The notes under the pieces are model-generated. The model was not told the origin of the DNA, searched no databases, and saw only the letters and a list, made by a program, of their open reading frames with translations. The translations under genes were made by a program, and so were the position numbers. 34,951 bases of DNA from a virus, in IMG/VR virus record IMGVR_UViG_3300050026_000390, positions 1-34,951 of that record. One strand, 5' to 3'. Shown here in pieces: positions 3,261 through 33,227 of the stretch. Every line of letters begins with the position of its first letter. The first letter of the stretch is position 1.

Positions 3261-3686
3261 TTACCATCCGCCTAATAGTCCACTTAATTTAGTCCCCGCT
3301 GCTGAACCAACTCCGCCTAATGCACTGCCTCCCAATTTCCCGCCTATTCCTGCAATTGTATCTAAGAAATTAGGTTTAGCGTCTTCATATTCTCCCAACC
3401 CCAAGAGTTGAGAAAGTACCTGCATGTGATTCTGCTGAGTCATTTGCTCGGAACGAGCATTAACATCAGAAATCTGTTGTCCGGAGTTACTGTAGATATC
3501 TGACTCTGCCGCTCCACTAATACCCGATCTGCCCATACCCGTACTTGAAAATTTTCCCAACAGATCCTTTACGCGTTTTCTTGTTTGCTGATTAATGCCA
3601 GCGGTGGCACTCGAAGCGTAATCGTTGGCGGCATTGTTGTTATTATATTCATTCATCATTAATTGTTCTATGTTATCCAAGTCCAT
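3261..3686 (-). CDS. hypothetical small virion protein with Gly/Ala-rich C-terminus, 141 aa
   Basis: The 141-residue product has an Asn-rich N-terminus (NEYNNNNAANDYASS), a Gln/Ser-rich helical middle and a hydrophobic Gly/Ala/Leu tail at about residues 112-141 (IAGIGGKLGGSALGG). Such a tail could insert in or associate with membrane, as in internal proteins ejected with phage DNA. The Shine-Dalgarno AGGAGG lies 5-6 nt before the ATG, inside the last codons of the neighbouring HNH gene, whose coding region overlaps this start by 14 nt. It probably belongs to the ejection cluster with the two genes downstream. Function unknown. Confidence 0.75.
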   Translation of the reverse strand: MDLDNIEQLMMNEYNNNNAANDYASSATAGINQQTRKRVKDLLGKFSSTGMGRSGISGAAESDIYSNSGQQISDVNARSEQMTQQNHMQVLSQLLGLGEYEDAKPNFLDTIAGIGGKLGGSALGGVGSAAGTKLSGLLGGW

Positions 3687-4200
3687 CTAACGCCTCCTGA
3701 TATTTTTGTGCTGCAATGTTTTCGTCTGTAAAGTAACCTAAATGTTTGCGAACACCATTTATGCCTATCTGCGAACACCATTTTTTGTTCTGTTCGTGCC
3801 AATATACACCCGTGTATTCAGATGTACGCGTTTTTCTTTTAGCCGCTTTAGTAGTATTTTCTCTTGCTGTTAAAAGTTGAAGATTGTCAATTCTATTATT
3901 CAGTTTATCATCGTCTTTGTGGTCAACTTGTAAGTCATCTCTTTGACCTTCACCGAAATAATCCCAAACGAGAAGATGAACCCTATACATAAAGGTTTTA
4001 TTCTCTTTGCTTAAGTGACAACCTAAATAACCATTTCCATTCAGACCTAATACTAAAATTCTTTCTTTCTTGCCTTGATTTCTTCCAGATGAGTCGGTAA
4101 AGAACTTTCTAAGTGATTTGATCTTCCCAAAATTAGATATTTCGTAATATCCTTCGTAACCTTTAATGGGTTTCCATTGTTCGATTAATTCGGTAAGCAT
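3673..4200 (-). CDS. NUMOD4-HNH homing endonuclease, cassette copy 1
   Basis: Free-standing homing endonuclease that would cut DNA at a target lacking the insertion. The NUMOD4 motif EQWKPIKGYEGYYEISNFG lies at about residues 7-25. The HNH core follows (VHLLVWDYFGEG, then LQVDHKDDDKLNNRIDNLQL), and a C-terminal AP2-like DNA-binding module begins EYTGVYWHEQNKKW. I chose the ATG at 4200 because AGGAG lies 5 nt upstream, displayed in a hairpin loop. The frame is also open upstream to a GTG at 4334 that overlaps the previous gene's stop (GTGA), which would add a hydrophobic N-terminus. The last codons run into the start of the next gene. Same cassette type as the HNH genes starting at 9768 and 16422. 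Confidence 0.88.
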   Translation of the reverse strand: MLTELIEQWKPIKGYEGYYEISNFGKIKSLRKFFTDSSGRNQGKKERILVLGLNGNGYLGCHLSKENKTFMYRVHLLVWDYFGEGQRDDLQVDHKDDDKLNNRIDNLQLLTARENTTKAAKRKTRTSEYTGVYWHEQNKKWCSQIGINGVRKHLGYFTDENIAAQKYQEALDGLG

Positions 4201-4285
4201 AATAACTCCTGTGGTTATTCCTGATAGTTGTTCAGCGGAAGCGTAATCAGGCGTTACGCTTTTCGGATTGCAATTCCTATCCGCT
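4201..4285 (-). ncRNA. structured leader RNA of HNH cassette, copy 1
   Basis: Read on the minus strand, the leader has four stems. P1 pairs AGCGGA (4280-4285) with TCCGCT (4234-4239). P2 is GGA/TCC closing a self-complementary TTGCAA loop (4265-4277). P3 is a perfect 7-bp hairpin AGCGTAA/TTACGCT with a 7-nt loop CGCCTGA (4240-4260). P4 is AATAAC/GTTATT with loop CACAGGA (4201-4219). Loop bases CCTGA can pair with TCAGG at 4220-4224, forming a pseudoknot that abuts P4. P4 shows the Shine-Dalgarno in its loop and the ATG follows directly. Copies 2 and 3 have the same architecture. Likely role: control of HNH translation (inference). Confidence 0.75.
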
Positions 4286-4319
4286 AAAAATATTAATAAC
4301 AATATAATAAAAATCTTTT

Positions 4320-4517
4320 TCACAAATTTGTACCCGTTTTTATCCACTTTCCTGAAACCATCTCATAAGAATTATGTGTCCCATCGGGATTTTTGATAAA
4401 TACTTTACTAAAATCTCTCACACTTTTTACATCCGGCAACTTTGTGCAAACCTGTGAAACCGGATGGAAGTATTTCCCGATTTCTGCAAGATGCTCTGAA
4501 TTTAATTTCTCACTCAT
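4320..4517 (-). CDS. hypothetical protein, 65 aa
   Basis: A small soluble protein (MSEKLNSEHLAEIGKYFHPV...) with no cysteine pattern, membrane segment or recognised domain. It overlaps the upstream secreted beta-helix gene by 4 nt (ATGA). Its stop overlaps an alternative GTG start of the HNH copy 1 frame. The tight packing between tail-region genes supports a real late gene, perhaps a small tail or head accessory protein. Family not recognised. Confidence 0.65.
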   Translation of the reverse strand: MSEKLNSEHLAEIGKYFHPVSQVCTKLPDVKSVRDFSKVFIKNPDGTHNSYEMVSGKWIKTGTNL

Positions 4518-5689
4518 TTTCTTATCCTTAATCTTTTTGAAACAGTTGGGGCTATATATGGCGGATTGTTCCTCAAATAAGGATAGCCGTCATTCGCATT
4601 TGGATCTATCTTCCAAATATTCACAAAGTCCCAGCCCGTAAATGTACCTTGAGTTTTCATCTGTGACGTTGATTTTGGGTAAGCTCTTGGGGTGGCACCA
4701 CCTTCTGCACCATCTCTATTGCCACCTGCAACAGTTGAATCAAAATAACATGATGAAGCATTCACGAGATAATAATTAGCAAAACCATCTACGGGAGTAC
4801 TTAACATTGTAGGAACAGAATAACAATTAGAATCAGCGTTTACTGTAGTCGAAAATCCACAACTTACCAAAGGGTTACCACCATTTATTTTAACTCTTGA
4901 ATAACAATTTCTTATTTCTTGAGAAGACCCAATACCTTGGACGTAACTATTGGATACTCCAGCACTACAATATAAGGTTGTGGAATCAACGAAGCATTCA
5001 GACACTCCTGGTCTTCCTGCGGAATTGAATAAACCGCTTATATTTATTGCTTGAGGAGAAATATAAGTATTGTGAATTGAAATATTTAATCCAATAGATG
5101 AACATTTCTTGTACTCAACAGCAAATGTGTTGCCAAATGATGTTACACCCCATGCGTTTACGCCATAGTAATGACCATCAGCAAGTGTAATATCAATATT
5201 ACAGTCTCTTATGTGAAAGCTCTGCATGCCCCCTGTTGTAGAACCAGGGGCTAATAGCCCAACAGTTATATAATTATATTCCATAATTCCTGTTCCAGCA
5301 TCACTAATTATTATTGAACAATGATAAAGAGTAAGATTATTAATACCCCCAGAATAATACGCGAACAAACCCAACTCACTGTGATGATATAGTGAGTCGT
5401 AGTGCATGGAAGTAATACGCATATTGCTTATTGTTTTTCCATTACCATTTAAATAACCAGAAAAATTATTTGTGGCAGGGTATGTATATCCTATCGGTGT
5501 CCAGTCACCATAACCTGATAAGTCAATATCATTATTTAGTATGTAGTAACTACTTAGGTGATTTCTAACGCTGTCTAATTGCACGGCAGAAGCAATCTGG
5601 TAAGGATCACTGGACGTGCCACTTCCACCACTAAACTGCGCTTGAATAAAAAGAGGAATAAATAATAATATGATTAATAATTTTTTCAT
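4514..5689 (-). CDS. secreted GLUG-like beta-helix protein, 391 aa, possible tailspike
   Basis: The N-terminus MKKLLIILLFIPLFIQAQFS is a clear Sec signal peptide with cleavage likely after AQA/Q-A. The mature region opens with a Gly/Ser stretch and a segment typical of GLUG/filamentous-haemagglutinin repeat proteins (DPYQIASAVQLDSVRN, then DIDLSGYGDWTPIGYTY). Repeated short strands such as LGLFAYYSGGINNLTL are consistent with a right-handed parallel beta-helix. The C-terminus is basic (SKRLRIRK). It overlaps the upstream fibre-like gene by 4 nt. A beta-helix in the tail region suggests a receptor-binding spike, but a signal peptide is unusual for a virion protein; a host-surface decoration exported during infection is an alternative. 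Confidence 0.75.
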   Translation of the reverse strand: MKKLLIILLFIPLFIQAQFSGGSGTSSDPYQIASAVQLDSVRNHLSSYYILNNDIDLSGYGDWTPIGYTYPATNNFSGYLNGNGKTISNMRITSMHYDSLYHHSELGLFAYYSGGINNLTLYHCSIIISDAGTGIMEYNYITVGLLAPGSTTGGMQSFHIRDCNIDITLADGHYYGVNAWGVTSFGNTFAVEYKKCSSIGLNISIHNTYISPQAINISGLFNSAGRPGVSECFVDSTTLYCSAGVSNSYVQGIGSSQEIRNCYSRVKINGGNPLVSCGFSTTVNADSNCYSVPTMLSTPVDGFANYYLVNASSCYFDSTVAGGNRDGAEGGATPRAYPKSTSQMKTQGTFTGWDFVNIWKIDPNANDGYPYLRNNPPYIAPTVSKRLRIRK

Positions 5690-9189: not shown

Positions 9190-9768
9190 TTATACATTTT
9201 GCAATTCATTAATTTCTGCTAATTTATTTTGATACGCATTTGCTGCATCAATTTCATTGACATAACAACCAAGCGATAATCTTTTACCATTTAACACCAA
9301 CCTCGCCATCCACTTCTTCGTATGTTTATGCCAACCAACACCAATATATTTAGATTTTTTATTTTCCATAGTCATGCGATATTTATTGCTATTTTTGCGA
9401 GCCGTTAATAATTGGAGATTATCAATCCTATTGTTTGATTTGTTATTATCAATGTGGTCAACTTCTAATTTATGTCCGTCTCTTTCACCTTGACCAAAAT
9501 GTTCCCAAACTAAGCGATGTATGGTATGCGTTTTTCGTATACCACTCTTTAGCAAGCAAACTCGATGATAACCTTCAGCCGTGAATGGCTTCAAAATACG
9601 TTCAGGCGTATTGTAGACCCCACCCGTATTTGTTATACATCGTTTAGGCAGAGATTTAACTCTACCAAAATTGGAAATCTCATAAAGTCCTTCGTAGCCT
9701 TTGATAGGCACAAACTTTTCAGTAACTAAAACGCCATCAATGTAAGTGGTAAGTAATTCGGTTTGCAT
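9190..9768 (-). CDS. NUMOD4-HNH homing endonuclease, cassette copy 2 (divergent)
   Basis: The NUMOD4 motif is at about residues 18-36 (KFVPIKGYEGLYEISNFGR). The HNH core is IHRLVWEHFGQGERDGHKLE then VDHIDNNKSNNRIDNLQLLT, and the C-terminus is AP2-like (SKYIGVGWHKHTKKW). The ATG at 9768 has GGAG 6 nt upstream in a hairpin loop. An alternative in-frame ATG at 9894 overlaps the stop of the upstream adaptor-like gene (ATGA) and would add a hydrophobic segment. Compared with copies 1 and 3 it has about 11 extra residues before NUMOD4. It sits between an adaptor-like gene and the nozzle gene, interrupting neither. Confidence 0.88.
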   Translation of the reverse strand: MQTELLTTYIDGVLVTEKFVPIKGYEGLYEISNFGRVKSLPKRCITNTGGVYNTPERILKPFTAEGYHRVCLLKSGIRKTHTIHRLVWEHFGQGERDGHKLEVDHIDNNKSNNRIDNLQLLTARKNSNKYRMTMENKKSKYIGVGWHKHTKKWMARLVLNGKRLSLGCYVNEIDAANAYQNKLAEINELQNV

Positions 9769-9769
9769 T

Positions 9770-9856
9770 GTAAACTCCGCATTTACTCCGATTGTAGGAT
9801 ATTCAGCGGAAGTATATTCGGAAGATATACTTGTCGGATGTACAGTCCTATCCGCT
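9770..9856 (-). ncRNA. structured leader RNA of HNH cassette, copy 2 (covarying)
   Basis: Same fold as copies 1 and 3 with different bases. P1 AGCGGA (9851-9856) pairs with TCCGCT (9805-9810). P2 is GGA/TCC around TGTACA (9836-9848). P3 is AGTATAT/ATATACT with the 7-nt loop CTTCCGA (9811-9831). P4 is GTAAA/TTTAC with loop TGCGGAG, which holds the Shine-Dalgarno (9770-9786). Loop bases TCCGA pair with TCGGA at 9787-9791, directly adjacent to P4. Relative to copy 1, three P3 pairs and two pseudoknot pairs have changed on both strands, and P4 has changed in a paired way. This is direct evidence for selection on the RNA fold. Confidence 0.78.
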
Positions 9857-9890
9857 AAAATTATTAATACAAATATAATTAAAATGTATC

Positions 9891-10568
9891 TCATAGGTCA
9901 CGAATTTTTAAGGATATTCCTTTATTAATACAGCCCTCCATCGAATACTTGGTAAAAGTCTCTCCATTGTATTGCTTAGAGAGCAAAAGCATGCTTTCTT
10001 TCAAATAATCTTCTTCCATGTCTTTAAATAGCCATTTTAGCATACCGAGTAAAATTAATTTATCGTATTGTGTGGGGAAGGAAGTATTGCCCGTATAAGC
10101 ACTATTTAGAAAACTTCCAAAGTCTCCGGCAACAGTTGAAGACGGACTGTAAAAATTAAAGTTAGACTGAAAATTCACAACCATAGTACTGGCAATGATA
10201 GGATTACCGTAAACCCAAATTTTAGGTATGGCACTTGAGTAAAGAATCGTATAATGACCCGGAGAACAGTTAAGGGCTACTCTTGACTGCATCCATGCGG
10301 TTGACTTTTCTGTTAACTTTTCGCATCCAATCATAACATCTTTTACAGTCATTATTGCAGCGTTAAGATCATACTTATCCGTTCCCGCTATGATGGGAAT
10401 AGACATAGAAGTTTCAATGACTCCAAAAGCTTTTTGGATATCACCACAGGTTTCAGAGAGCATGGTTACAACGTCTCCTTCCCCGAGCACAATTTCTGTA
10501 ACTCTTCGCTTAAGACATTCTAATGAATACCTTCTTTTAAATAGGTCAACTATCTCCGCTAAAATCAT
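9891..10568 (-). CDS. head-tail adaptor / tail connector-like protein, 225 aa
   Basis: A mixed alpha/beta protein of about 225 residues. It has a helical N-terminus (MILAEIVDLFKRRYSLECLK), a central beta region and a helical C-terminus (LLGMLKWLFKDMEEDYLKES). This is the usual outline of T7 gp11-like and gp6-like adaptors that stack on the portal. It is the third of three similar-sized genes between the head genes and the nozzle gene. The assignment rests on size, fold pattern and order, not on a diagnostic motif. Confidence 0.65.
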   Translation of the reverse strand: MILAEIVDLFKRRYSLECLKRRVTEIVLGEGDVVTMLSETCGDIQKAFGVIETSMSIPIIAGTDKYDLNAAIMTVKDVMIGCEKLTEKSTAWMQSRVALNCSPGHYTILYSSAIPKIWVYGNPIIASTMVVNFQSNFNFYSPSSTVAGDFGSFLNSAYTGNTSFPTQYDKLILLGMLKWLFKDMEEDYLKESMLLLSKQYNGETFTKYSMEGCINKGISLKIRDL

Positions 10569-15855: not shown

Positions 15856-16422
15856 TTAATCTAATTTATTCAAATATGCAAACTCGCCAGATAGCTCCAT
15901 TACTCTATTATTGTAAGCAAGGGCAGCTTCTTCGTTTGTTTTGAAACAACCCAAATATTTATGTATGCCATTAGAACTAATCTGGGCTATCCAATAAGAG
16001 TAAATTTTGCCTTTATATTTTTTTGAAGAAAGACAGACACCGGTATATTTTGAAGACTTATCTTTATGCAAATAAGTTTTAATTACGTTTTCTCTCGAGG
16101 TTAATAATTGCAAATTATCAATTCTACAGTTTTGTTTATTATTGTCAACATGGTCAACTTGGATTTTTCTGTTATCTCTTTTGCCTACTCCAAAATGATC
16201 CCATACAACGCTGTGGATTGTATGCGCAAACGTTTTCTTCTCTTTGGTCAAATGACAAAGCAAATAACCCCCGCTATTAATATTTGACTTCAAAATTCTT
16301 TCTTCGTTATATCGATTATTGATCTTGCGCTTTAGGCTCTTTACTCTCCCAAGATTAGAGATTTCGTAAAGACCTTCGTAGCCCTTAATTGGTTTCCACT
16401 GTTCTTGTGATTCGGTAAACAT
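15856..16422 (-). CDS. NUMOD4-HNH-AP2 homing endonuclease, cassette copy 3
   Basis: NUMOD4 lies at about residues 7-26 (EQWKPIKGYEGLYEISNLGR). The HNH core follows (IHSVVWDHFGVGKRDNRKIQ, then VDHVDNNKQNCRIDNLQLLT) and a C-terminal AP2-type DNA-binding domain (SKYTGVCLSSKKYKGKIYSY through ELSGEFAYLN). The ATG at 16422 is served by AGGAG 5 nt upstream in a hairpin loop. An alternative in-frame ATG at 16548 overlaps the stop of the small upstream gene (TGATG). It is nearly identical to copy 1 in the leader, so the two cassettes are recent relatives. The AP2 part resembles that of the plus-strand endonuclease starting at 31693. Confidence 0.88.
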   Translation of the reverse strand: MFTESQEQWKPIKGYEGLYEISNLGRVKSLKRKINNRYNEERILKSNINSGGYLLCHLTKEKKTFAHTIHSVVWDHFGVGKRDNRKIQVDHVDNNKQNCRIDNLQLLTSRENVIKTYLHKDKSSKYTGVCLSSKKYKGKIYSYWIAQISSNGIHKYLGCFKTNEEAALAYNNRVMELSGEFAYLNKLD

Positions 16423-16510
16423 AATAACTCCTGTGGCTATTCCTGATTGAAGTTGTTCAGCGGAAGCGTAATCAGGCGTTACGCTTTTCGGATTGCAATT
16501 CCTATCCGCT
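16423..16510 (-). ncRNA. structured leader RNA of HNH cassette, copy 3
   Basis: P1 is at 16505-16510 with 16459-16464, the 7-bp P3 hairpin at 16465-16485, the pseudoknot partner TCAGG at 16442-16446, and P4 (AATAGC/GTTATT, one G-U pair) at 16423-16441 with the Shine-Dalgarno in its loop. It is identical to copy 1 from P1 to the end of P1' plus seven bases, but differs by a 3-nt insertion before the pseudoknot strand and by a C-G to G-U type change in P4. All proposed pairs are kept. Confidence 0.75.
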
Positions 16511-16547
16511 AAAATTGTCAATACAAATATAAGAAATATTTTAAACA

Positions 16548-16715
16548 TCAATTAAGCACCAAAGACCGCTTGTTAGTCATCCTAAGCGTGAAAACTTTTA
16601 CCTTACCCTCTCTCAACAATTTAACAACTATCGGAGTTTGAGGGTTAAAACTTTCTTCATCGACTGGAAGAACTATTTCTTTTTTGTTGGCAATCTTTAG
16701 AGAAATTTCAATCAT
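16548..16715 (-). CDS. small hypothetical protein after portal, 55 aa
   Basis: The ATG at 16715 overlaps the portal stop (ATGA), and the stop overlaps the alternative start of the HNH copy 3 frame (TGATG). The product (MIEISLKIANKKEIVLPVDE... ending RMTNKRSLVLN) is small, with alternating beta-like hydrophobic residues and a basic C-terminus. The double overlap supports translation in the late operon. Family not recognised. Confidence 0.6.
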   Translation of the reverse strand: MIEISLKIANKKEIVLPVDEESFNPQTPIVVKLLREGKVKVFTLRMTNKRSLVLN

Positions 16716-19492: not shown

Positions 19493-21676
19493 TCAAAAAG
19501 ATGTGATAGTTTTTGTTTCACGAATTAAATTTACCGCTGCTTGACGCGCGGTAATGGGTTGTATTTCTTTGGGTTTAATAGGCGCATAAAGATAATTTAC
19601 TATGTAGCGAAGAGCATCACAATTGGAAACTAAAATATTATTCGCATAATAATTATGAGCATCTTCAACTTCTAAGTTATAAACTGGCATTTTCATATTT
19701 AGGGGTTTTAGTTCTAAACCCTTGATAAATTGATCTTCTACTTGCAGCCCTGCAGTTCTGATGACAAAACTTTGACCTCGTAGGAAAAGGAGTTTTATAT
19801 TCTCGACCACAAAATTTACAATTGACGATAACCTGTTCCCTATCTTCCCAGCATTGCTTGCCGTGTTCGGAGTGCCATTGTCTTCCCTCGTTTGAGGCAT
19901 GCCATTGCTTTGTAAGTGGTCTGATCTTATCAAGGTTTTGTTTTCTTCTTTGAATTTGTCCAGGGGTTTTATTGTTCCCATGCAAAGATGCATGTTTTGA
20001 TTTTGTGAGAAGTTGTAGGTTAGAAATGTTGTTATTTTTTCTATTAAAATCTTTGTGATGGACTTCATATCCTTTCGGGACTTCTCCATATGATTCTGCG
20101 TAAATGATAACATGAAGTCTTTTGCGACCGTCTTTACATCCTCCGACGGGGGAGTAATAATTCCCGTCCCAATTATATTTTTGACCTTTGTAAGTAATTG
20201 ACATATTGAAACCTTTTTGATTGCAATATAATCAAAGTATCGCAATGAATCAATAGGTACTTTACCTCTTGCTGTATAAGTCGGATGATTGCCGGTACCG
20301 ATTAGCCCATACTCTCCAATAGTCAATTCGTAAACCATATCAACTCCAGTCATACAGGAAACTAAAACTTTTTTTATACCTTGTGAAGTAATAACATATT
20401 CACCAACTTTAACATCTTGAATATTTTTTAGTGAGTAGTCATGCATCAAAATCTTAGTATCAGCAATCAAACAACAATGGTCGTCTCTCTTAATCGGTTC
20501 TTCGTATTCGTTTTTAACTTCGCCAGGTTTCAATGCTTTCCATTTATAATTTCCGATCTCTCGAATTAAATTAACACAATTACTTGATATTTGCAAACGT
20601 CCGGACTTGAACATCTCATTTACTCGGTTGATTCCTTGCCTCACATCATTATCGGCATGGTTCCAGACAATGCCGTTTAATAAATATTCCATCGCAACGT
20701 TTGACCCGTCTCTTTCTACTTTTGAAATCGATGGATCTGCTATTTTATATCCTCTATCAAAAAACTTTCTTGTTTTTAATTCTGTTGATACATCACTTAT
20801 AAGTTTCCCAGCTTCATAATATTCATCATAAAACGTAGTAATCCCATCATAATTTGTTGCTGCAAATAAAACAGCTGTTGGATTTCTAAAACCATAATCC
20901 ATGCAGATGGTTATTTCGTCTATATCAAACGGGTCGTAATAACTAGTTTTATGTTTAGCTTCAATAAATTCGTTGAATACTAATCCCTCAAAATCTTCCC
21001 ACGAACAAAATACATATCTCTTAACCCATCGCTCGGGATATGCTAAAAGTTCTTTAACATAATCAGCGGGCAAGTAAATATTTTCCGTTGTGATAGCTTC
21101 AAAGAGTTCATAACCTTCAATCTGATTATTTTTCCATCTATCCCACAACCAATCGTGACCAGCGGGGTTACACGTTGCAAAGAAGTCTCTCCCTGAATCG
21201 TTACGTCTTAAGCGGCCTTGAAAAGCCAAAAATACAGCTTCCTGAATTTCCTCCAATTGGTCTATCGCAACAAAACCTAAATTCAGCGACTTTATCTTTT
21301 CGGTTGCTTCTCTTGAATCATCTAAGTTCATATAAAATAATCTTGACCCATTTATGAAGTCAATCCAGTGGTCTTGTTTGTTGTGATTTGATATTAATTC
21401 AGCAGGACAAATATCCAGAAAATCTTTTAGTGTTGTAGATTTTAATTCACCCAAATCTTTACGTCCAAGAACTCCGTAGTTGTTTTTATATGACGGATGG
21501 AATAATTGACAGAGTACCTCGATAATCAAACTTGTGGATTTCCCACAACCGAAGCCACCGGCCAATAATCTGTATTTTGATTTTGAATTGTGGAATTTAA
21601 CTTGTGTCGGTAAAGGTAAGCCTTGCGGGTTCTGTGAGTTTTTTGGATACGAAATTCTAACGGTTGCTTCAGACAT
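19493..21676 (-). CDS. terL: large terminase subunit interrupted by an intein, 727-aa precursor
   Basis: ATP-driven packaging motor and headful/site nuclease. The ATPase part has Walker A GGFGCGKST (residues 40-48) and Walker B FVAIDQLEEI (about 135-144). The nuclease part has conserved acidic residues at D260 (ICMDYGF) and D314 (IADPS). Its final motif is split by an intein at residues 402-685: the exteins read RDDHC then CDALRYIVNY, so the joined protein is about 443 aa and regains DDHCCDALRY. Insertion at a catalytic motif is typical of inteins. A separate HNH frame overlaps residues about 491-667. Confidence 0.9.
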   Translation of the reverse strand: MSEATVRISYPKNSQNPQGLPLPTQVKFHNSKSKYRLLAGGFGCGKSTSLIIEVLCQLFHPSYKNNYGVLGRKDLGELKSTTLKDFLDICPAELISNHNKQDHWIDFINGSRLFYMNLDDSREATEKIKSLNLGFVAIDQLEEIQEAVFLAFQGRLRRNDSGRDFFATCNPAGHDWLWDRWKNNQIEGYELFEAITTENIYLPADYVKELLAYPERWVKRYVFCSWEDFEGLVFNEFIEAKHKTSYYDPFDIDEITICMDYGFRNPTAVLFAATNYDGITTFYDEYYEAGKLISDVSTELKTRKFFDRGYKIADPSISKVERDGSNVAMEYLLNGIVWNHADNDVRQGINRVNEMFKSGRLQISSNCVNLIREIGNYKWKALKPGEVKNEYEEPIKRDDHCCLIADTKILMHDYSLKNIQDVKVGEYVITSQGIKKVLVSCMTGVDMVYELTIGEYGLIGTGNHPTYTARGKVPIDSLRYFDYIAIKKVSICQLLTKVKNIIGTGIITPPSEDVKTVAKDFMLSFTQNHMEKSRKDMKSITKILIEKITTFLTYNFSQNQNMHLCMGTIKPLDKFKEENKTLIRSDHLQSNGMPQTREDNGTPNTASNAGKIGNRLSSIVNFVVENIKLLFLRGQSFVIRTAGLQVEDQFIKGLELKPLNMKMPVYNLEVEDAHNYYANNILVSNCDALRYIVNYLYAPIKPKEIQPITARQAAVNLIRETKTITSF
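19622..20473 (-). mobile_element. intein in the large terminase (284 aa)
   Basis: The N-terminal splicing block starts at Cys402 (CLIADTKILMHDYS), with block B GTGNHPTY at 460-467. The C-terminal blocks F and G read VYNLEVEDAHNYYANNILVS then Asn685, followed by Cys686 as the +1 nucleophile. The penultimate residue is Ser, where His is usual, so the last cleavage step may be slower or use another residue. Between the splicing halves, residues about 490-662 match no endonuclease in this frame; instead an HNH gene lies there in the -1 frame. Splicing is expected from the motifs but not shown. Confidence 0.85.
19677..20204 (-). CDS. HNH homing endonuclease encoded out of frame inside the intein, 175 aa
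   Basis: A complete HNH gene in the -1 frame relative to terminase. It starts MSITYKGQKYNWDGNYYSP and has the core LHVIIYAESYGEVPKGYEVH then HKDFNRKNNNISNLQLLTKS. A C-terminal zinc finger follows (VNCKFCGREYKTPF, FCHQNCRAASRRS). The ATG at 20204 has AAAAAGG with 7-nt spacing, so it can be translated independently. In this frame a TGA lies nine or ten codons upstream, so it is not a simple continuation of the N-intein, although a -1 slip at C AAA AAG could reach it. It fills exactly the region where inteins normally hold their endonuclease. Confidence 0.85.
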   Translation of the reverse strand: MSITYKGQKYNWDGNYYSPVGGCKDGRKRLHVIIYAESYGEVPKGYEVHHKDFNRKNNNISNLQLLTKSKHASLHGNNKTPGQIQRRKQNLDKIRPLTKQWHASNEGRQWHSEHGKQCWEDREQVIVNCKFCGREYKTPFPTRSKFCHQNCRAASRRSIYQGFRTKTPKYENASL

Positions 21677-22142: not shown

Positions 22143-22167
22143 ACGCTATCAAAACGCTATTTTCTTC

Positions 22168-22197
22168 CAAAAATACACAATTATTTATTAATTGCAA
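22168..22197 (-). promoter_or_regulatory. Bacteroidota-type promoter for the late operon
   Basis: On the minus strand TTG (22195-22197), a 19-nt spacer and TATTTTTG (22168-22175) match the -33/-7 TTG...TAnnTTTG pattern. It lies about 25-55 nt upstream of the small terminase gene, the head of the packaging and virion operon. Confidence 0.65.
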
Positions 22198-22232
22198 ATA
22201 GAAAAATAATGCGTACAATCGTTGCTGTGAAT

Positions 22233-22736
22233 CTAAACAACTCTCTTTTCAACCGTGACAATCGTATCATTCTTTGCCCCACCATGCGGGACTAAAAGAA
22301 TTTCGATCATTTCGAAACCTCTGTTAATTCCAAATCCCATAGAGTTCCAACCGAAACAAATTACTAATCCATCAAGTTTTATTTTGGGAGCCAATAAGTT
22401 TTTAGCATCTGAATAAAAACTCATTTGTGTGTCGGTCATAAAAACTTTTCTTCCGATTCCTTTATAACATTCTGAAATTTGTCTTACCGAATAAGGAGGG
22501 TCAAATAATATTCCATTAAGTTCACTGGGTAGTTGTTTAGAAAATTCTTTTGCTTCTAAATGATATTTTGCTTTTATGTTTTGATTCAAATCATTAGTAA
22601 ATTCAGCCGGACTATTCTCACCGCAAAAGGGGTCAGCCCAACCGATGCCACCTTTTACGTGTTTTTGTAGTAGCTCTTTTATTGGTTTGATTAAAAAAGT
22701 GTGTCTATTCGGCATTGCCCAAATTCGATTTATCAT
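22233..22736 (-). CDS. DNA adenine methyltransferase-like protein, 167 aa
   Basis: An N6-adenine methyltransferase-like product that could protect phage DNA from host restriction. Motif I-like ADPFCGENS is near residues 34-42 and catalytic motif IV DPPYS near 79-83. The start at 22736 (MINRIWAMPNRHTF) matches the common opening of this short phage family; a GTG nine codons upstream is possible. At about 167 residues it is shorter than full Dam enzymes and has no obvious target-recognition domain. The Cys/Glu/Asn in motif I deviate from FxGxG, so activity is uncertain. Confidence 0.75.
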   Translation of the reverse strand: MINRIWAMPNRHTFLIKPIKELLQKHVKGGIGWADPFCGENSPAEFTNDLNQNIKAKYHLEAKEFSKQLPSELNGILFDPPYSVRQISECYKGIGRKVFMTDTQMSFYSDAKNLLAPKIKLDGLVICFGWNSMGFGINRGFEMIEILLVPHGGAKNDTIVTVEKRVV

Positions 22737-23050: not shown

Positions 23051-23156
23051 CGTTATTCTCCTTTTTAAGTTTGTTTATTTCATTCACCCGTTTCAACAAT
23101 TCCAGTATTTTCTTTTCGTCTGTTTCTGTTTTTAATTTTAGGGTGATAGATTTCAC
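23016..23156 (-). CDS. small Lys/Glu-rich helical protein, 46 aa
   Basis: A GTG start overlaps the stop of the helicase loader gene (GTGA). The product (VKSITLKLKTETDEKKILEL..., then LKRVNEINKLKKENN) is predicted helical or coiled-coil after a beta start. The overlaps on both sides support a real small gene between loader and 71-aa protein, though the C-terminus overlaps the next gene by 35 nt. Confidence 0.45.
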   Translation of the reverse strand: MKSITLKLKTETDEKKILELLKRVNEINKLKKENNDGRIKINCNGK

Positions 23157-24850: not shown

Positions 24851-26014
24851 TTATTCGTAATATACATTAGTCAATTGTTTACCATTGCTTTCGATATGCC
24901 ATAAATTATATTTTGGCTCAATTAGTTTTAAGTCCTCAAGTTTCCCAAACCTATTGTAATTTTGGCACATGTCAACTATCATAGCTTTTTCTTTTTCTGG
25001 GTGTGGTCTTATAGCTCTACCGGACATTTGATAATATAAAGCCAATGATCGCGTTGGTCTCGCAAGTACAACCGTCTCAAGTTCGGGAAAATCAAAGCCA
25101 TGAGTAAGAACTCCAACATTTGCAACTGCTTTTATTTCGCCTTTCTTAAACCCTTCAATAATTTCGGTTCTTTCTTTTGGTTTTGTTTGTGCGGAAACTG
25201 TTTGTATAACCCCGCTAAATCTATCCACAAGAAAATCCGATTCTTCAACAAATCTTGTAAAGATCAAAATATTTTTTCTGTTTATTTCAAGAAGTCTTTC
25301 AACTACTTTTACAAGTTTATCTTGAAAATTAATTTCTTTATAATGAGATTTTACGGATTCGTCTGTATAATCGGCTCCAGTAGAATTTAATCTCAACTTA
25401 TGGGAATCAAATCCGTTTACCTGATGATATTCAAGTTTAGATAAATAGCCCTTTTCAAAAAGATCTCCAGTTTGAATATGATAAATAACTTTGTGAAATA
25501 TTCTTGGTCTTGTACGAGTAATAAATTTAAGGATTGAACCGCCAAACCCATCCGTGGTTAGCCGGTAGGGTGTTGCGGTCAACCCAATTATCTTTTCTCC
25601 TACTACTTCAAAAAACTTTTTATACATCCCGGTTTTTGAATTTACATAATGACATTCATCCACTATAATATTTTTGAAATGCTTGAACGTTTCAGGGTTG
25701 CAATTATTGACCGATCCGATTGTAGCAAAAGTTAGATTACTTATTTGTTTTGAGTTGAATGAAGCTGAAAAAATAGAACAATCCGAAACTCCATAGGATA
25801 AAAGTTTATTATAGTTTTGTTCTAAGATTTCTTTGTTCGGTTGGAAAACTAAAGTAGGTTCGCTTAGTTCTTTTGCAATGCTGGCTATTATGAGAGACTT
25901 ACCGGCGCCGGTTGGAAGTACTTCAATAACCGGATGAGTGTTTTTAGAATCTTTGAAATAATCAAGGGCGTTATTTTTAGCTTCGGATTGATATTCTCTT
26001 AAAATATAGGTCAA
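24851..26014 (-). CDS. superfamily II DEAD/DEAH-box helicase, 387 aa
   Basis: DNA or RNA unwinding ATPase of the UvrB/Hef/Res type. Motifs in order: Q-like start REYQSEA at 7-13; Walker A LPTGAGKS at 33-40; Walker B DECH at 119-122; motif III GLTATPYR at 144-151; motif V-like THGFDFPELETVV; motif VI QMSGRAIRP. The length of 387 fits a two-RecA-domain core with few extras. It lies upstream of the replication genes. Its mRNA leader contains a pseudoknot-terminator structure (26027-26114), so expression may be attenuated. Confidence 0.87.
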   Translation of the reverse strand: MTYILREYQSEAKNNALDYFKDSKNTHPVIEVLPTGAGKSLIIASIAKELSEPTLVFQPNKEILEQNYNKLLSYGVSDCSIFSASFNSKQISNLTFATIGSVNNCNPETFKHFKNIIVDECHYVNSKTGMYKKFFEVVGEKIIGLTATPYRLTTDGFGGSILKFITRTRPRIFHKVIYHIQTGDLFEKGYLSKLEYHQVNGFDSHKLRLNSTGADYTDESVKSHYKEINFQDKLVKVVERLLEINRKNILIFTRFVEESDFLVDRFSGVIQTVSAQTKPKERTEIIEGFKKGEIKAVANVGVLTHGFDFPELETVVLARPTRSLALYYQMSGRAIRPHPEKEKAMIVDMCQNYNRFGKLEDLKLIEPKYNLWHIESNGKQLTNVYYE

Positions 26015-26026
26015 GATAACCTCATT

Positions 26027-26114
26027 AAAAAAGCCCTTTCCACATAATGCGAGTTATGCAAAAAGAGCTTTTGTAAAAGAGAAAAGAAAAATATTTATGT
26101 TTAATGTCTCGCAC
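26027..26114 (-). ncRNA. pseudoknotted terminator-like RNA before the helicase gene
   Basis: On the minus strand an 18-bp stem (26054-26071 with 26030-26047) contains four G-U or U-G pairs, a 6-nt loop CTCGCA and a following TTTTTT. The wobble pairs are valid only on this strand. The entire loop can pair with TGCGAG at 26108-26113, 36 nt upstream, making a pseudoknot or kissing-like contact. A TTG-N19-TATATTTG promoter lies 46 nt upstream. It may be an attenuator controlling the helicase operon or a small terminated RNA. Confidence 0.6.
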
Positions 26115-26159
26115 CACTAAACTCGTTTTAATAAAAATTAGTTTCAAAATTTCACTTCA

Positions 26160-26189
26160 CAAATATAAGAAAATTTCTGATTAATTCAA
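26160..26189 (-). promoter_or_regulatory. Bacteroidota-type promoter upstream of helicase leader
   Basis: On the minus strand TTG (26187-26189), a 19-nt spacer and a perfect -7 box TATATTTG (26160-26167). The spacing is identical to that of the plus-strand promoter at 26990-27019. Confidence 0.7.
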
Positions 26190-26201
26190 CTTCATTTGCA
26201 A

Positions 26202-26423
26202 TTATTTTTTAGCTGTTTTTGGTTCAAGTTGCTTAAGGAAATCAATATCGGGCACTTTCCCTAAAAGTTTGTAATACTCCATTTCGAGCTTAATTGAGGA
26301 TAGTATTTTACCCGTTGCATTTGTAACAGCGTTTACATTTGCCGCGCTTGTCGTTCCGGTTCTTACCTTATCAATTTCTTCAGATAAGATTGTTCTTAAA
26401 TCGTTAAGTGATTTTGTTTGCAT
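26202..26423 (-). CDS. conserved phage hypothetical, helical, 73 aa
   Basis: A small helix-rich protein (MQTKSLNDLRTILSEEIDKV, then NAVTNATGKILSSIKLEMEY). The pattern of an N-terminal SLNDLR.ILSEEI helix and a central NVNAVTNATGKIL segment is one I associate with small conserved phage proteins of unknown role. It overlaps the 131-aa zinc gene upstream by 28 nt. Confidence 0.65.
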   Translation of the reverse strand: MQTKSLNDLRTILSEEIDKVRTGTTSAANVNAVTNATGKILSSIKLEMEYYKLLGKVPDIDFLKQLEPKTAKK

Positions 26424-31577: not shown

Positions 31578-31680
31578 ATGCGATGATACAAAACAATTCA
31601 AAAATATTAAATGGCTCGAACTTAGTAAAGGATACCTACCCGTATCATCGCACTTTATTAGGCGAGAGCCATTTTTATTT
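31578..31680 (+). ncRNA. pseudoknotted RNA before the plus-strand HNH gene
   Basis: Stem A is a perfect 11 bp: TGCGATGATAC (31579-31589) with GTATCATCGCA (31642-31652). Stem B is a perfect 9 bp: AAATGGCTC (31609-31617) with GAGCCATTT (31666-31674). The order A5', B5', A3', B3' makes an H-type pseudoknot. B is followed by a T-rich stretch (TTTATTT) like a terminator. It lies directly downstream of a good promoter and upstream of the HNH-AP2 gene. It may be a small RNA or an attenuator. Confidence 0.68.
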
Positions 31681-31692
31681 ATGGATAGTAAA

Positions 31693-32229
31693 ATGAAAGA
31701 GATCAAACTAACTCAGGGGAAGATTGCTTTAGTTGATGATGAAGATTTTGAAGAACTCAACAAACATAGGTGGTATATAATTAAAAGCAAATATTGTTAT
31801 GCGACGAGAATGAAGTCAAAATCAAAGGGCGTGATCCTAATGCACCGAGCCATCATGAACACCCCGAAAGAGTTATTCGTTGACCACATCGACCACGATA
31901 CATTAAACAACCAAAAATATAATTTAAGAAATTGCACGCGCTCAGAAAATATGATGAATCAAGAAATACAGACAAAAAGGATAAGCCAATATAAAGGGGT
32001 TTTCAAGACCAACAGATACTATAAAGATAAAATATATTCGTCCTGGATAGCTAAAATAAAAATAGAGCAAAAAACACTCTATCTTGGCGCACACAAAACC
32101 GAAATAGAGGCAGCGATAGCATATAATAAAAAAGCAACAGAGTTGTTTGGTGAGTTTGCGTTATTAAATACTATCCCGAACCAACAAGATTTTGTTAAAG
32201 ATAAAATTAAAACAGATAGAGTTGATTAA
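31693..32229 (+). CDS. HNH-AP2 homing endonuclease, 178 aa
   Basis: The N-terminus MKEIKLTQGKIALVDDEDFE is the usual opening of free-standing HNH-AP2 endonucleases. The HNH core is MHRAIMNTPKELFVDHIDHD then TLNNQKYNLRNCTRSENMMN. The AP2 DNA-binding part is QYKGVFKTNRYYKDKIYSSW through KATELFGEFALLN, similar to that of the minus-strand HNH starting at 16422. The start at 31693 matches the family; an ATG four codons earlier is possible. The frame is open upstream through the structured RNA, but I see no start there with a ribosome-binding site. Confidence 0.85.
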   Translation: MKEIKLTQGKIALVDDEDFEELNKHRWYIIKSKYCYATRMKSKSKGVILMHRAIMNTPKELFVDHIDHDTLNNQKYNLRNCTRSENMMNQEIQTKRISQYKGVFKTNRYYKDKIYSSWIAKIKIEQKTLYLGAHKTEIEAAIAYNKKATELFGEFALLNTIPNQQDFVKDKIKTDRVD

Positions 32230-32267: not shown

Positions 32268-32633
32268 ATGCCAGAACCAAAAACAATTAAAATCGATGAT
32301 GTTGAATATATCCGCAAGGATAGCATTCCATCTCTTGACAACAATGAAAACTATTCAATCATTCGCACACAAAATGCCGGAGTTCATGCAGGTTATTTGC
32401 AGTCAACAAATATCGGTAATGGAAGCGTTGTATTAAAAAATGCTCGAAGAATTTGGTATTGGGATGGGGCGGCTTCACTTTCTCAACTTGCGCTTGAAGG
32501 GGTTTCAAAACCAGAAAATTGTAAATTTTCAGTAGTTGTTCCTGAAATTACATTGTTGGGTGTTATTGAAATAATTCCATGCACTATTTCTGCATTAAAA
32601 AATATTTCACAGGTAAAAATATGGAAAAGCTAA
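32268..32633 (+). CDS. DUF6948-like protein, 121 aa
   Basis: The product (MPEPKTIKIDDVEYIRKDSI) includes the stretch YSIIRTQNAGVHAGYLQSTN, then VVLKNARRIWYWDGAASLSQ, and ends IEIIPCTISALKNISQVKIW, which I associate with the DUF6948 phage family. The start has AAGGAG. In phages this gene is often followed by a Gly-Ser/Tyr/Asp repeat gene, as here; the two overlap by 13 nt. Function unknown. Confidence 0.78.
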   Translation: MPEPKTIKIDDVEYIRKDSIPSLDNNENYSIIRTQNAGVHAGYLQSTNIGNGSVVLKNARRIWYWDGAASLSQLALEGVSKPENCKFSVVVPEITLLGVIEIIPCTISALKNISQVKIWKS

Positions 32634-32914
32634 TTGGTTCCGGTTACGGTTCCGGTGACGGTTACGGTTACGGTTACGGTTACGGTTCCGGTTCCGGTTC
32701 CGGTTACGGTTCCGGTGACGGTTACGGTTACGGTTCCGGTTCCGGTTACGGTTACGGTTCCGGTTCCGGTTCCGGTGACGGTTCCGGTTACGGTGACGGT
32801 TACGGTTCCGGTTCCGGTTCCGGTTCCGGTGACGGTTCCGGTTACGGTGACGGTTACGGTTTCGGTTCCGGTTCCGGTGACGGTGACGGTTACGGTTCCG
32901 GTTCCGGTTCATAA
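32621..32914 (+). CDS. G(S/Y/D)-repeat low-complexity protein, 97 aa
   Basis: After MEKLI the whole protein is dipeptide repeats GS, GY and GD (one GF). The ATG at 32621 is chosen because the short MEKLI leader is the usual start of such phage proteins; an in-frame ATG lies further upstream inside the DUF6948 gene. All frames are open on both strands through the repeat, so coding cannot be judged by frame alone, but the coupling to the DUF6948 gene supports this one. It could be a flexible or phase-separating tail. Function unknown. Confidence 0.65.
   Translation: MEKLIGSGYGSGDGYGYGYGYGSGSGSGYGSGDGYGYGSGSGYGYGSGSGSGDGSGYGDGYGSGSGSGSGDGSGYGDGYGFGSGSGDGDGYGSGSGS
32636..32908 (+). repeat. 6-bp tandem repeats GGT(TCC/TAC/GAC)
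   Basis: About 45 consecutive 6-bp units, each GGT followed by TCC, TAC or GAC, with one TTC. The first three bases never change. Longer blocks such as GGTGACGGTTACGG recur, pointing to slippage and recombination among units. Confidence 0.95.
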
Positions 32915-32970
32915 AATAATTTTACGCAGACCCGTTATCGTACTACATTGATTGCTATAGGAAAAAGACG

Positions 32971-33001
32971 TTGACTCAATCGTAATAATTTATTAATTTT
33001 A
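32971..33001 (+). promoter_or_regulatory. candidate promoter before second plus-strand pseudoknot RNA
   Basis: TTG (32971-32973), a 20-nt spacer and TAATTTTA (32994-33001), one mismatch from TAnnTTTG. Predicted start is within a few bases of the long stem at 33006. Confidence 0.5.
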
Positions 33002-33005
33002 CAGC

Positions 33006-33120
33006 GCTTGTAACAGGAGTTTATCTAAATGAAAATAATAGCCCTTGATTTGAATGTGAACGAAATTCTTACCAAAGAACTCCGTTACAAGCCACGTTCG
33101 AACAAGGGCTTTCTATTTTT
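33006..33120 (+). ncRNA. pseudoknotted RNA with U-rich end, overlapping a 38-aa frame
   Basis: Stem X pairs 33006-33022 with 33077-33092: GCTTGTAAC/GTTACAAGC then GGAGTTT/GAACTCC, with a single bulged A at 33015 and one G-U. Stem Y pairs AGCCCTTG (33040-33047) with CAAGGGCT (33103-33110), followed by TTCTATTTTT. The order X5', Y5', X3', Y3' makes an H-type pseudoknot, as at 31578-31680. Stem X contains the AGGAG Shine-Dalgarno of a short frame starting at 33029, so the fold could control that frame or be a small RNA in its own right. Confidence 0.65.
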
Positions 33121-33145
33121 AAGAGGTTGTGATGAGAGAGATTAA
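33029..33145 (+). CDS. small protein, 38 aa, within the structured RNA
   Basis: ATG at 33029 with AGGAG 9 nt upstream. The product (MKIIALDLNVNEILTKELRY..., then KGFLFLRGCDERD) is hydrophobic at the start and basic in the middle. The Shine-Dalgarno lies inside stem X of the pseudoknot. Coding potential is plausible but the RNA fold explains much of the sequence constraint. Confidence 0.4.
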   Translation: MKIIALDLNVNEILTKELRYKPRSNKGFLFLRGCDERD

Positions 33146-33227
33146 TCCGGTAAGTATGAGCAAATTTTTGAATGAAGTTGTTGAGTTCTTTGAATTTCGT
33201 CAACTACAACACTTTGAACGTTTCTAA
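33132..33227 (+). CDS. possible micro-protein, 31 aa (plus strand)
   Basis: ATG with AGAGG 5 nt upstream; the product (MREINPVSMSKFLNEVVEFF...) is short and helical. An opposite-strand frame at 33142-33315 covers the same bases; only one is likely real. Confidence 0.3.
   Translation: MREINPVSMSKFLNEVVEFFEFRQLQHFERF

Follow-up and report, generated by a model that had tools for sequence, protein, structure and literature searches.

In the current model of the ampC attenuator of Escherichia coli, a ribosome that has loaded on a short leader keeps transcription from terminating, this leader being a tiny start-stop ORF without a pseudoknot. In the pyrBI operon of the same bacterium, the leader frame pyrL ends just before pyrB. 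As described in two accounts (PMC5021804, PMC4824070), the pyrBI leader ORF runs through an intrinsic terminator, and a close, translating ribosome blocks terminator formation and, hence, termination. For the T4-type homing endonuclease genes (I-TevI/II/III, segB, mobE, segF), PMC2988022 describes RNA structure that hides the ribosome-binding site (RBS) and, for mobE and segF, also intrinsic terminators in the 5' ends; T4 is thus a precedent for phages keeping such genes in check through RNA structure together with 5'-end terminators. In type III toxin-antitoxin systems such as ToxIN, a pseudoknot RNA is made before a nuclease gene.

In this study, we discuss a phage 5' leader which we are slightly inclined to read as a ribosome-dependent, pyrBI-like transcription attenuator with a pseudoknot that locks the leader start. 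Ribosome loading would be the trait held in common with ampC. While pyrBI has a plain hairpin, the phage leader forms a pseudoknot with the leader start in its first stem, the AUG lies at or next to the predicted transcription start (+1) in many members, and the leaders precede endonuclease as well as other genes. The T4 hairpins hide the endonuclease's own RBS, whereas here the lock would act on the ORF of a leader that has a promoter to itself and stands in front of varied genes; the first stem pairs with the RBS or start of the leader, and pairing with the RBS of the endonuclease gene itself was not found. A literature search, which covered few of the subscription papers, yielded no paper on such a leader.

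The stretch of DNA analysed (the window; 34,951 nucleotides) is the phage record IMGVR_UViG_3300050026_000390 of IMG/VR. Its strongest element, RNA2, consists of a promoter, two interleaved stems (S1 and S2, with 5' arms S1a and S2a and 3' arms S1b and S2b) and a U-run that makes S2 a terminator-like hairpin:

32971..32999, plus strand: sigma70-like promoter (TTGACT 32971-32976, 17-nt spacer, TAATTT 32994-32999; predicted +1 at about 33006)
33006..33022, plus strand: S1 5' arm, starting at the predicted +1 and including the GGAG of the leader Shine-Dalgarno
33029..33145, plus strand: leader ORF of 38 codons, spanning both stems and the U-run and overlapping the HNH start in a related phage (G001)
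33040..33058, plus strand: S2 5' arm (8 + 10 pairs, A33048 bulged)
33077..33092, plus strand: S1 3' arm
33093..33110, plus strand: S2 3' arm, abutting the S1 3' arm without a gap
33111..33120, plus strand: U-run TTCTATTTTT
33132..33227, plus strand: 31-codon ORF now 3' of RNA2, read from the sequence; G001 has the HNH gene there

S1 comprises 16 pairs (33006-33014 and 33016-33022 with 33077-33092), with A33015 bulged and a U-G as last pair. The 18 pairs of S2 are divided by the bulged A33048 into an outer part of eight (33040-33047/33103-33110) and an inner part of ten (33049-33058/33093-33102). The original prediction of a one-bulge 16-bp stem interleaved with an 8-bp stem and followed by TTCTATTTTT is thereby borne out, the 8-bp stem being the outer part of S2. 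It had also placed a Shine-Dalgarno inside the long stem and proposed that the 38-aa frame would be blocked once that stem forms; the GGAG of AGGAG is indeed paired in S1, which supports this blockage. The predicted +1 coincides with the first base of S1a. By shuffling, support for this promoter is only moderate (p 0.095, obtained with the identical copy of G001, L016).

When both strands of the window were scored for such pseudoknots, RNA2 ranked first (-57.0), followed by the element at 31578 (RNA1; -46.3), while the best of 84 single-strand block shuffles reached -46.9, or -42.3 when a U-run was present. The two top-ranking elements have the same topology, in agreement with the earlier notion that RNA2 repeats the design of the RNA at 31578. 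For RNA2, ViennaRNA gives a competing nested fold of S2 plus part of the second loop (L2), with an MFE of -33.8 (z -5.2); this program does not score pseudoknots. RNA1 and a weaker third copy, RNA3, are arranged as follows:

31579..31680, plus strand: RNA1 (S1 31579-31589/31642-31652; S2 31609-31630/31653-31674; U-run)
31583-31696, plus strand: RNA1 leader ORF of 37 codons, the TGA of which overlaps the HNH ATG at 31693
31681..32229, plus strand: HNH_3 endonuclease gene directly behind RNA1
26020..26114, minus strand: RNA3 (score -40.1, near the shuffle range), with a 29-codon GTG leader ORF

RNA3 stands before a helicase gene starting at 26014 on the minus strand. Elsewhere in the window, three NUMOD4-HNH genes (3673-4347, 9190-9894 and 15856-16551, minus strand) have a common, ILADRNCNPKSVTPDYASAEQL-like in-frame N-terminal stretch, which is perhaps a shared insertion context, and a terminase-like ORF (19493-21676, minus strand) contains, as judged by eye only, an intein-like insert (CLIADTKILMHDYSLKNIQDVKVGEYVI ... 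NYYANNILVSNC).

Close relatives sought via the neighbouring proteins were not found. G001 is a related phage record with a portal protein 96% identical to that of the window, and it holds a copy of RNA2 at a different genomic place:

32915..33143, plus strand: unit common to the window and G001 (229 bp, 97.8% identical, stems identical)

In G001, this copy lies directly 5' of an HNH endonuclease gene, which has its ATG 21 nt past S2 and its RBS (AAGAGG) after the U-run. Just past the position of this ATG, the two sequences diverge, leaving the 31-codon ORF in the window. From this comparison, the HNH gene that RNA2 precedes in G001 appears to have been lost from the window or swapped. The original prediction had allowed for a messenger for a small protein, a non-coding RNA, or both. 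The structured RNA and the open frame are supported, while a small-protein product and a free-standing RNA are not. The homologous place in G001 presents RNA2 as the leader of the following gene. The counterpart of RNA3 in G001 has the same upstream DNA (window 26131-26217, 95%), but neither its stems nor the gene behind it are those of the window, this comparison drawing on matches hand-picked among 72. Taken together, the settings of RNA1, RNA2 and RNA3 argue that the leader unit moves and changes its cargo.

Short stretches of about 93-96% identity to G001 occur amid diverged DNA at window positions 22165-22233, 23072-23152 and 26131-26217, the last being the region upstream of RNA3. A Gly/Tyr/Ser/Asp repeat ORF (window 32579-32914; L016 4916-4971), with strongly different repeat numbers in the two phages, has RNA2 behind its 3' end in the window only; in G001, RNA2 lies elsewhere. 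As candidate mobile-element ends, we considered ATGCAGACCC/GGGTCTGCAT, a perfect 10-bp inverted repeat (L016 3355-3364/4055-4064) flanking leader and HNH gene in G001, and rejected it (p 0.07). Flanking inverted repeats are not general: among 20 members tested, L120, L154 and L221 alone gave p<=0.03, with unrelated sequences.

The distribution of the element was assessed at the start sites of related HNH genes. Viral and genome contigs encoding related HNH proteins supplied 281 loci with a mapped start, of which 213 distinct upstream regions were kept after dropping identical or short ones. A pseudoknot plus U-run that ends 0-60 nt before the ATG was found at <=-40 in 15/213 HNH loci versus 0/1065 shuffles and 4/858 other ORF starts, and at <=-30 in 37/213 versus 25/1065 and 29/858, respectively, the other ORF starts being from the same loci. 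Most HNH genes of the family lack the element, and about five of the 37 are expected from shuffles. In 698 kb scanned on both strands (17 contigs in addition to the window and the G001/G002 loci), 21 matches at <=-45 compare with 0 in shuffled sequence, and 45 with 6 at <=-40; these contigs were picked for carrying a member or the HNH family, so that the densities are not those of phages generally. The 21 include three from G+C-rich sequence (L308+5923, L309-18221, L310+2716), of which those in L308 and L310 look like chance. Among cultured or named phages, 0/10 HNH loci had a leader at <=-30 (best -28.2). Four unselected phages (Cellulophaga phi38:1, Porphyromonas, Flavobacterium and Phocaeicola; 184 kb) gave three matches at <=-38, none with the promoter-ORF anatomy as judged by eye; the one at <=-45 is a repeat without promoter.

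Within the contigs, the same design is met again in front of HNH genes and of ParB-like, replication-like, helicase and small unknown genes, the stems being unrelated in sequence. The 16.4-kb contig L331 carries four members, each before a different gene; L329 has two members at <=-45 before ParB-like and replication-like genes (names assigned by eye, without a Pfam match) plus an HNH leader at -44.0. Primary sequence conservation is almost nil, which may explain why Rfam families miss most members.

This variety of cargo bears on readings that pair a pseudoknot RNA with a nuclease, i.e., HEARO, toxin-antitoxin or guide RNAs, which are suggested by the order of promoter, pseudoknot RNA, terminator and nuclease gene, as seen at RNA1, in G001 and in many relatives. 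However, the leader also precedes genes of the other kinds named above, the stems are not conserved, and tandem RNA repeats, a trait of type III toxin-antitoxin systems, are absent, each locus having one pseudoknot. The phage element differs from these systems in being a single, non-repeated RNA with a leader ORF, varied cargo and no conserved RNA sequence. No endoribonuclease toxin of the ToxN/CptN/TenpN type was found, the cargo being HNH_3 or unrelated genes. Neither RNA1 nor RNA2 has a HEARO/IscB omega RNA covariance match at the gathering threshold or at E<=10, and no RuvC-HNH protein was seen, the HNH proteins being small (163-182 aa) with HNH_3 as sole Pfam match. We regard these readings as quite improbable.

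The int-alpA RNA (RF02996) is likewise a structured phage RNA directly before HNH genes of the family, yet has a different fold, and no covariance match to it was found in RNA1 or RNA2. It occurs directly before HNH genes in L021 (2419-2483), L071 (2416-2482) and L117 (2414-2481), a context that differs from the one implied by its name. In another viral contig, L127, positions 4510-4739 match permuted tmRNA (RF04321, 62.8 bits).

For the anatomy of the leader, members scoring <=-42, or <=-38 when upstream of HNH, with G+C <=0.62 and one per 30-nt core were collected (n=41; n=40 with 60 nt of upstream sequence), a set that includes the probable chance rows L310, L194, L291, L283 and L336. An ATG lies in the 8-nt window at the 5' edge of S1a in 22/41 members versus 8% of upstream windows. 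In 8 of these 22, its A is the predicted +1 (6 nt after the -10 box), and in two more it is within one base; RNA1, too, has an AUG near the predicted 5' end, but not RNA2 with its Shine-Dalgarno leader. The promoter of structure-selected members ends just 5' of S1a; a sigma70-type promoter (p<=0.02) was found in 15/40, a Bacteroidota-type -7 box in 6/40 and either of them in 18/40. An ATG precedes S2a in 31/41 members and is absent in 10/41. As in RNA1 and RNA2, the frame runs through the terminator in 23 of the 31, versus 12.3 expected (0/20000 simulations reach 23), and is closed in the remaining 8/31.

At its 3' end, the leader stops <=22 nt from the downstream start in 11/13 members with a separate frame. 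A gene follows directly in most members and in G001, with the 31-codon ORF in its place behind RNA2 of the window. The spacing from S2b to the ATG is 5-24 nt in most members, leaving little room for another promoter. An N-terminal extension of the HNH protein or frameshifting was considered and rejected, as 8-9 of the 23 open leaders carry on in the same frame into the next gene or beyond it, close to the one third that chance would give. A motif in the first loop, L1 (AAAAUAUUAA), is a candidate for conservation that was noted by eye and by pattern; it partly reflects leader codons.

These features have to be set against the possibility that the element is a free, stable phage small RNA of about 110 nt, sealed at its 5' end in S1 and at its 3' end in S2 and acting in trans, with the downstream genes there by chance or hitching on its promoter. 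The own promoter and terminator and the strong pseudoknot would suit such an RNA, as would several different elements in one phage contig (four in L331) and the differing cargo behind RNA3 in two related phages. The openness of the ORF, the stop/start overlap with the next gene and the short spacing to a downstream ATG would then be unexpected, however, and the wholly different stem sequences leave the members without a common RNA surface beyond the loops. We consider a free RNA unlikely.

Covariation could be followed in relatives rather than in RNA2 itself, the sole other copy of which (G001) is identical through the stems. The homologous leaders L322, L329 (minus) and L238 have 98.7% of cells paired, with both sides changed in 7/26 pairs; covariation is 0.474 versus 0.197 shuffled (1/500), and slid alignments reach <=42% paired. 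In S1 alone, 11/11 pairs are kept and 4/11 are changed on both sides. A second family of seven sequences is 79.7% paired (covariation 0.522 versus 0.303 shuffled; 0/500), and L095 and L138 are distinguished within the RNA by a single compensated pair plus two changes that leave pairing intact. The leader structure and anatomy are well supported. S2 and its U-run, which make a good terminator, could simply belong to the preceding gene as its intrinsic terminator, S1 then arising by chance, and L020 has a mere plain hairpin before its HNH gene; still, the abutment of S1 on S2 is far above shuffles and S1 covaries independently, making this explanation very improbable.

The same relatives speak to the view that the frame of 30-40 codons encodes a genuine small protein, with stems that are coincidental or merely tune its expression. 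It could draw on the excess of open frames (23/31 versus 12.3 expected) and on the well-placed Shine-Dalgarno and start of RNA2. Against it, 25/26 pairs remain paired between L322 and L329, while the leader peptide of this one pair has no amino-acid constraint (pS 0.23, pN 0.22). This is the opposite of amino acids being conserved with broken pairs, the outcome named in advance as speaking against the RNA. The peptides of unrelated members are, by eye, alike only where the U-run forces it, and no Pfam or PHROG match was found. A small protein gene is, hence, improbable; it seems to be translation of the leader, rather than the peptide, that matters.

Variants of the design exist. In L072, L100, L150, L156, L160, L163, L204, L217 and L258, S1a lies, by eye, in a 5' hairpin loop, and may form a kissing loop with the loop of the terminator hairpin in place of the pseudoknot, mostly without a leader ORF (none is evident in L100, L150, L163, L204 and L258). 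In a family of seven (L078, L084, L111, L135, L158, L229, L028), the sequence of the S2 3' arm occurs once more immediately in front of the HNH ATG. This second copy tracks the changes in S2a (own mean 5.14, with L084 counted as 2 instead of 7; the highest of 2000 null values is 4.71), as if S2a could pair with either the terminator arm or the start region.

For the pyrBI-like attenuator, we propose the following course, in which termination, ribosome dependence and the function of the lock are what we infer. Transcription would begin at or next to S1a, so that the first bases carry the start codon or RBS of a leader ORF of about 30-40 codons, which crosses the whole structure and usually stops at the start of the next gene. 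A ribosome on the nascent leader, trailing RNA polymerase, would mask S1a and S2a; terminator S2 would fail to form, the polymerase would read on, and the ribosome would reach the downstream gene via the stop/start overlap. If no ribosome arrives in time, S1 would close over the leader start, S2 would form alongside, and transcription would stop, releasing a sealed RNA of about 110 nt.

In favour of this attenuator, we count RNA2 before the HNH gene in G001, scores beyond shuffles, covariation in three sets, the AUG at the S1a edge, ORF openness, the coincidence of +1 with the A of the AUG, stop/start proximity and the behaviour of pyrBI (PMC5021804, PMC4824070). Against it, we count the closed leaders and absent ATGs, the nested fold of RNA2, the kissing-loop relatives, the HNH genes without the element and the result for cultured phages. 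The main objection comes from PMC4824070, where terminators less than 100 bp into an ORF are reported to lose little of their efficiency and to tend to escape the first ribosome. Leaderless starts bind 70S directly (PMC9031893), and by analogy, near-leaderless starts might shorten the ribosome delay and ease this objection.

More tentatively, and with somewhat less than an even chance in our judgement, these leaders may make up a new regulatory class in phages ("load or lock"), in which the start codon of a 5'-end mini-ORF is an arm of the terminator pseudoknot and one decision is taken per nascent transcript: with a ribosome loaded, the gene would be expressed; otherwise, the start would be sealed and the transcript terminated. 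Some phages would reuse this arrangement to tie expression to free ribosomes.

If this holds true, phages of several host groups (with sigma70-type and Bacteroidota-type promoters) would make the expression of mobile endonucleases and other genes depend on ribosomes loading on near-leaderless mini-ORFs, and would thereby sense host translation in a simple way. Moreover, what phage annotation lists as intergenic "sRNAs" and as "small ORFs" can be a single control element.
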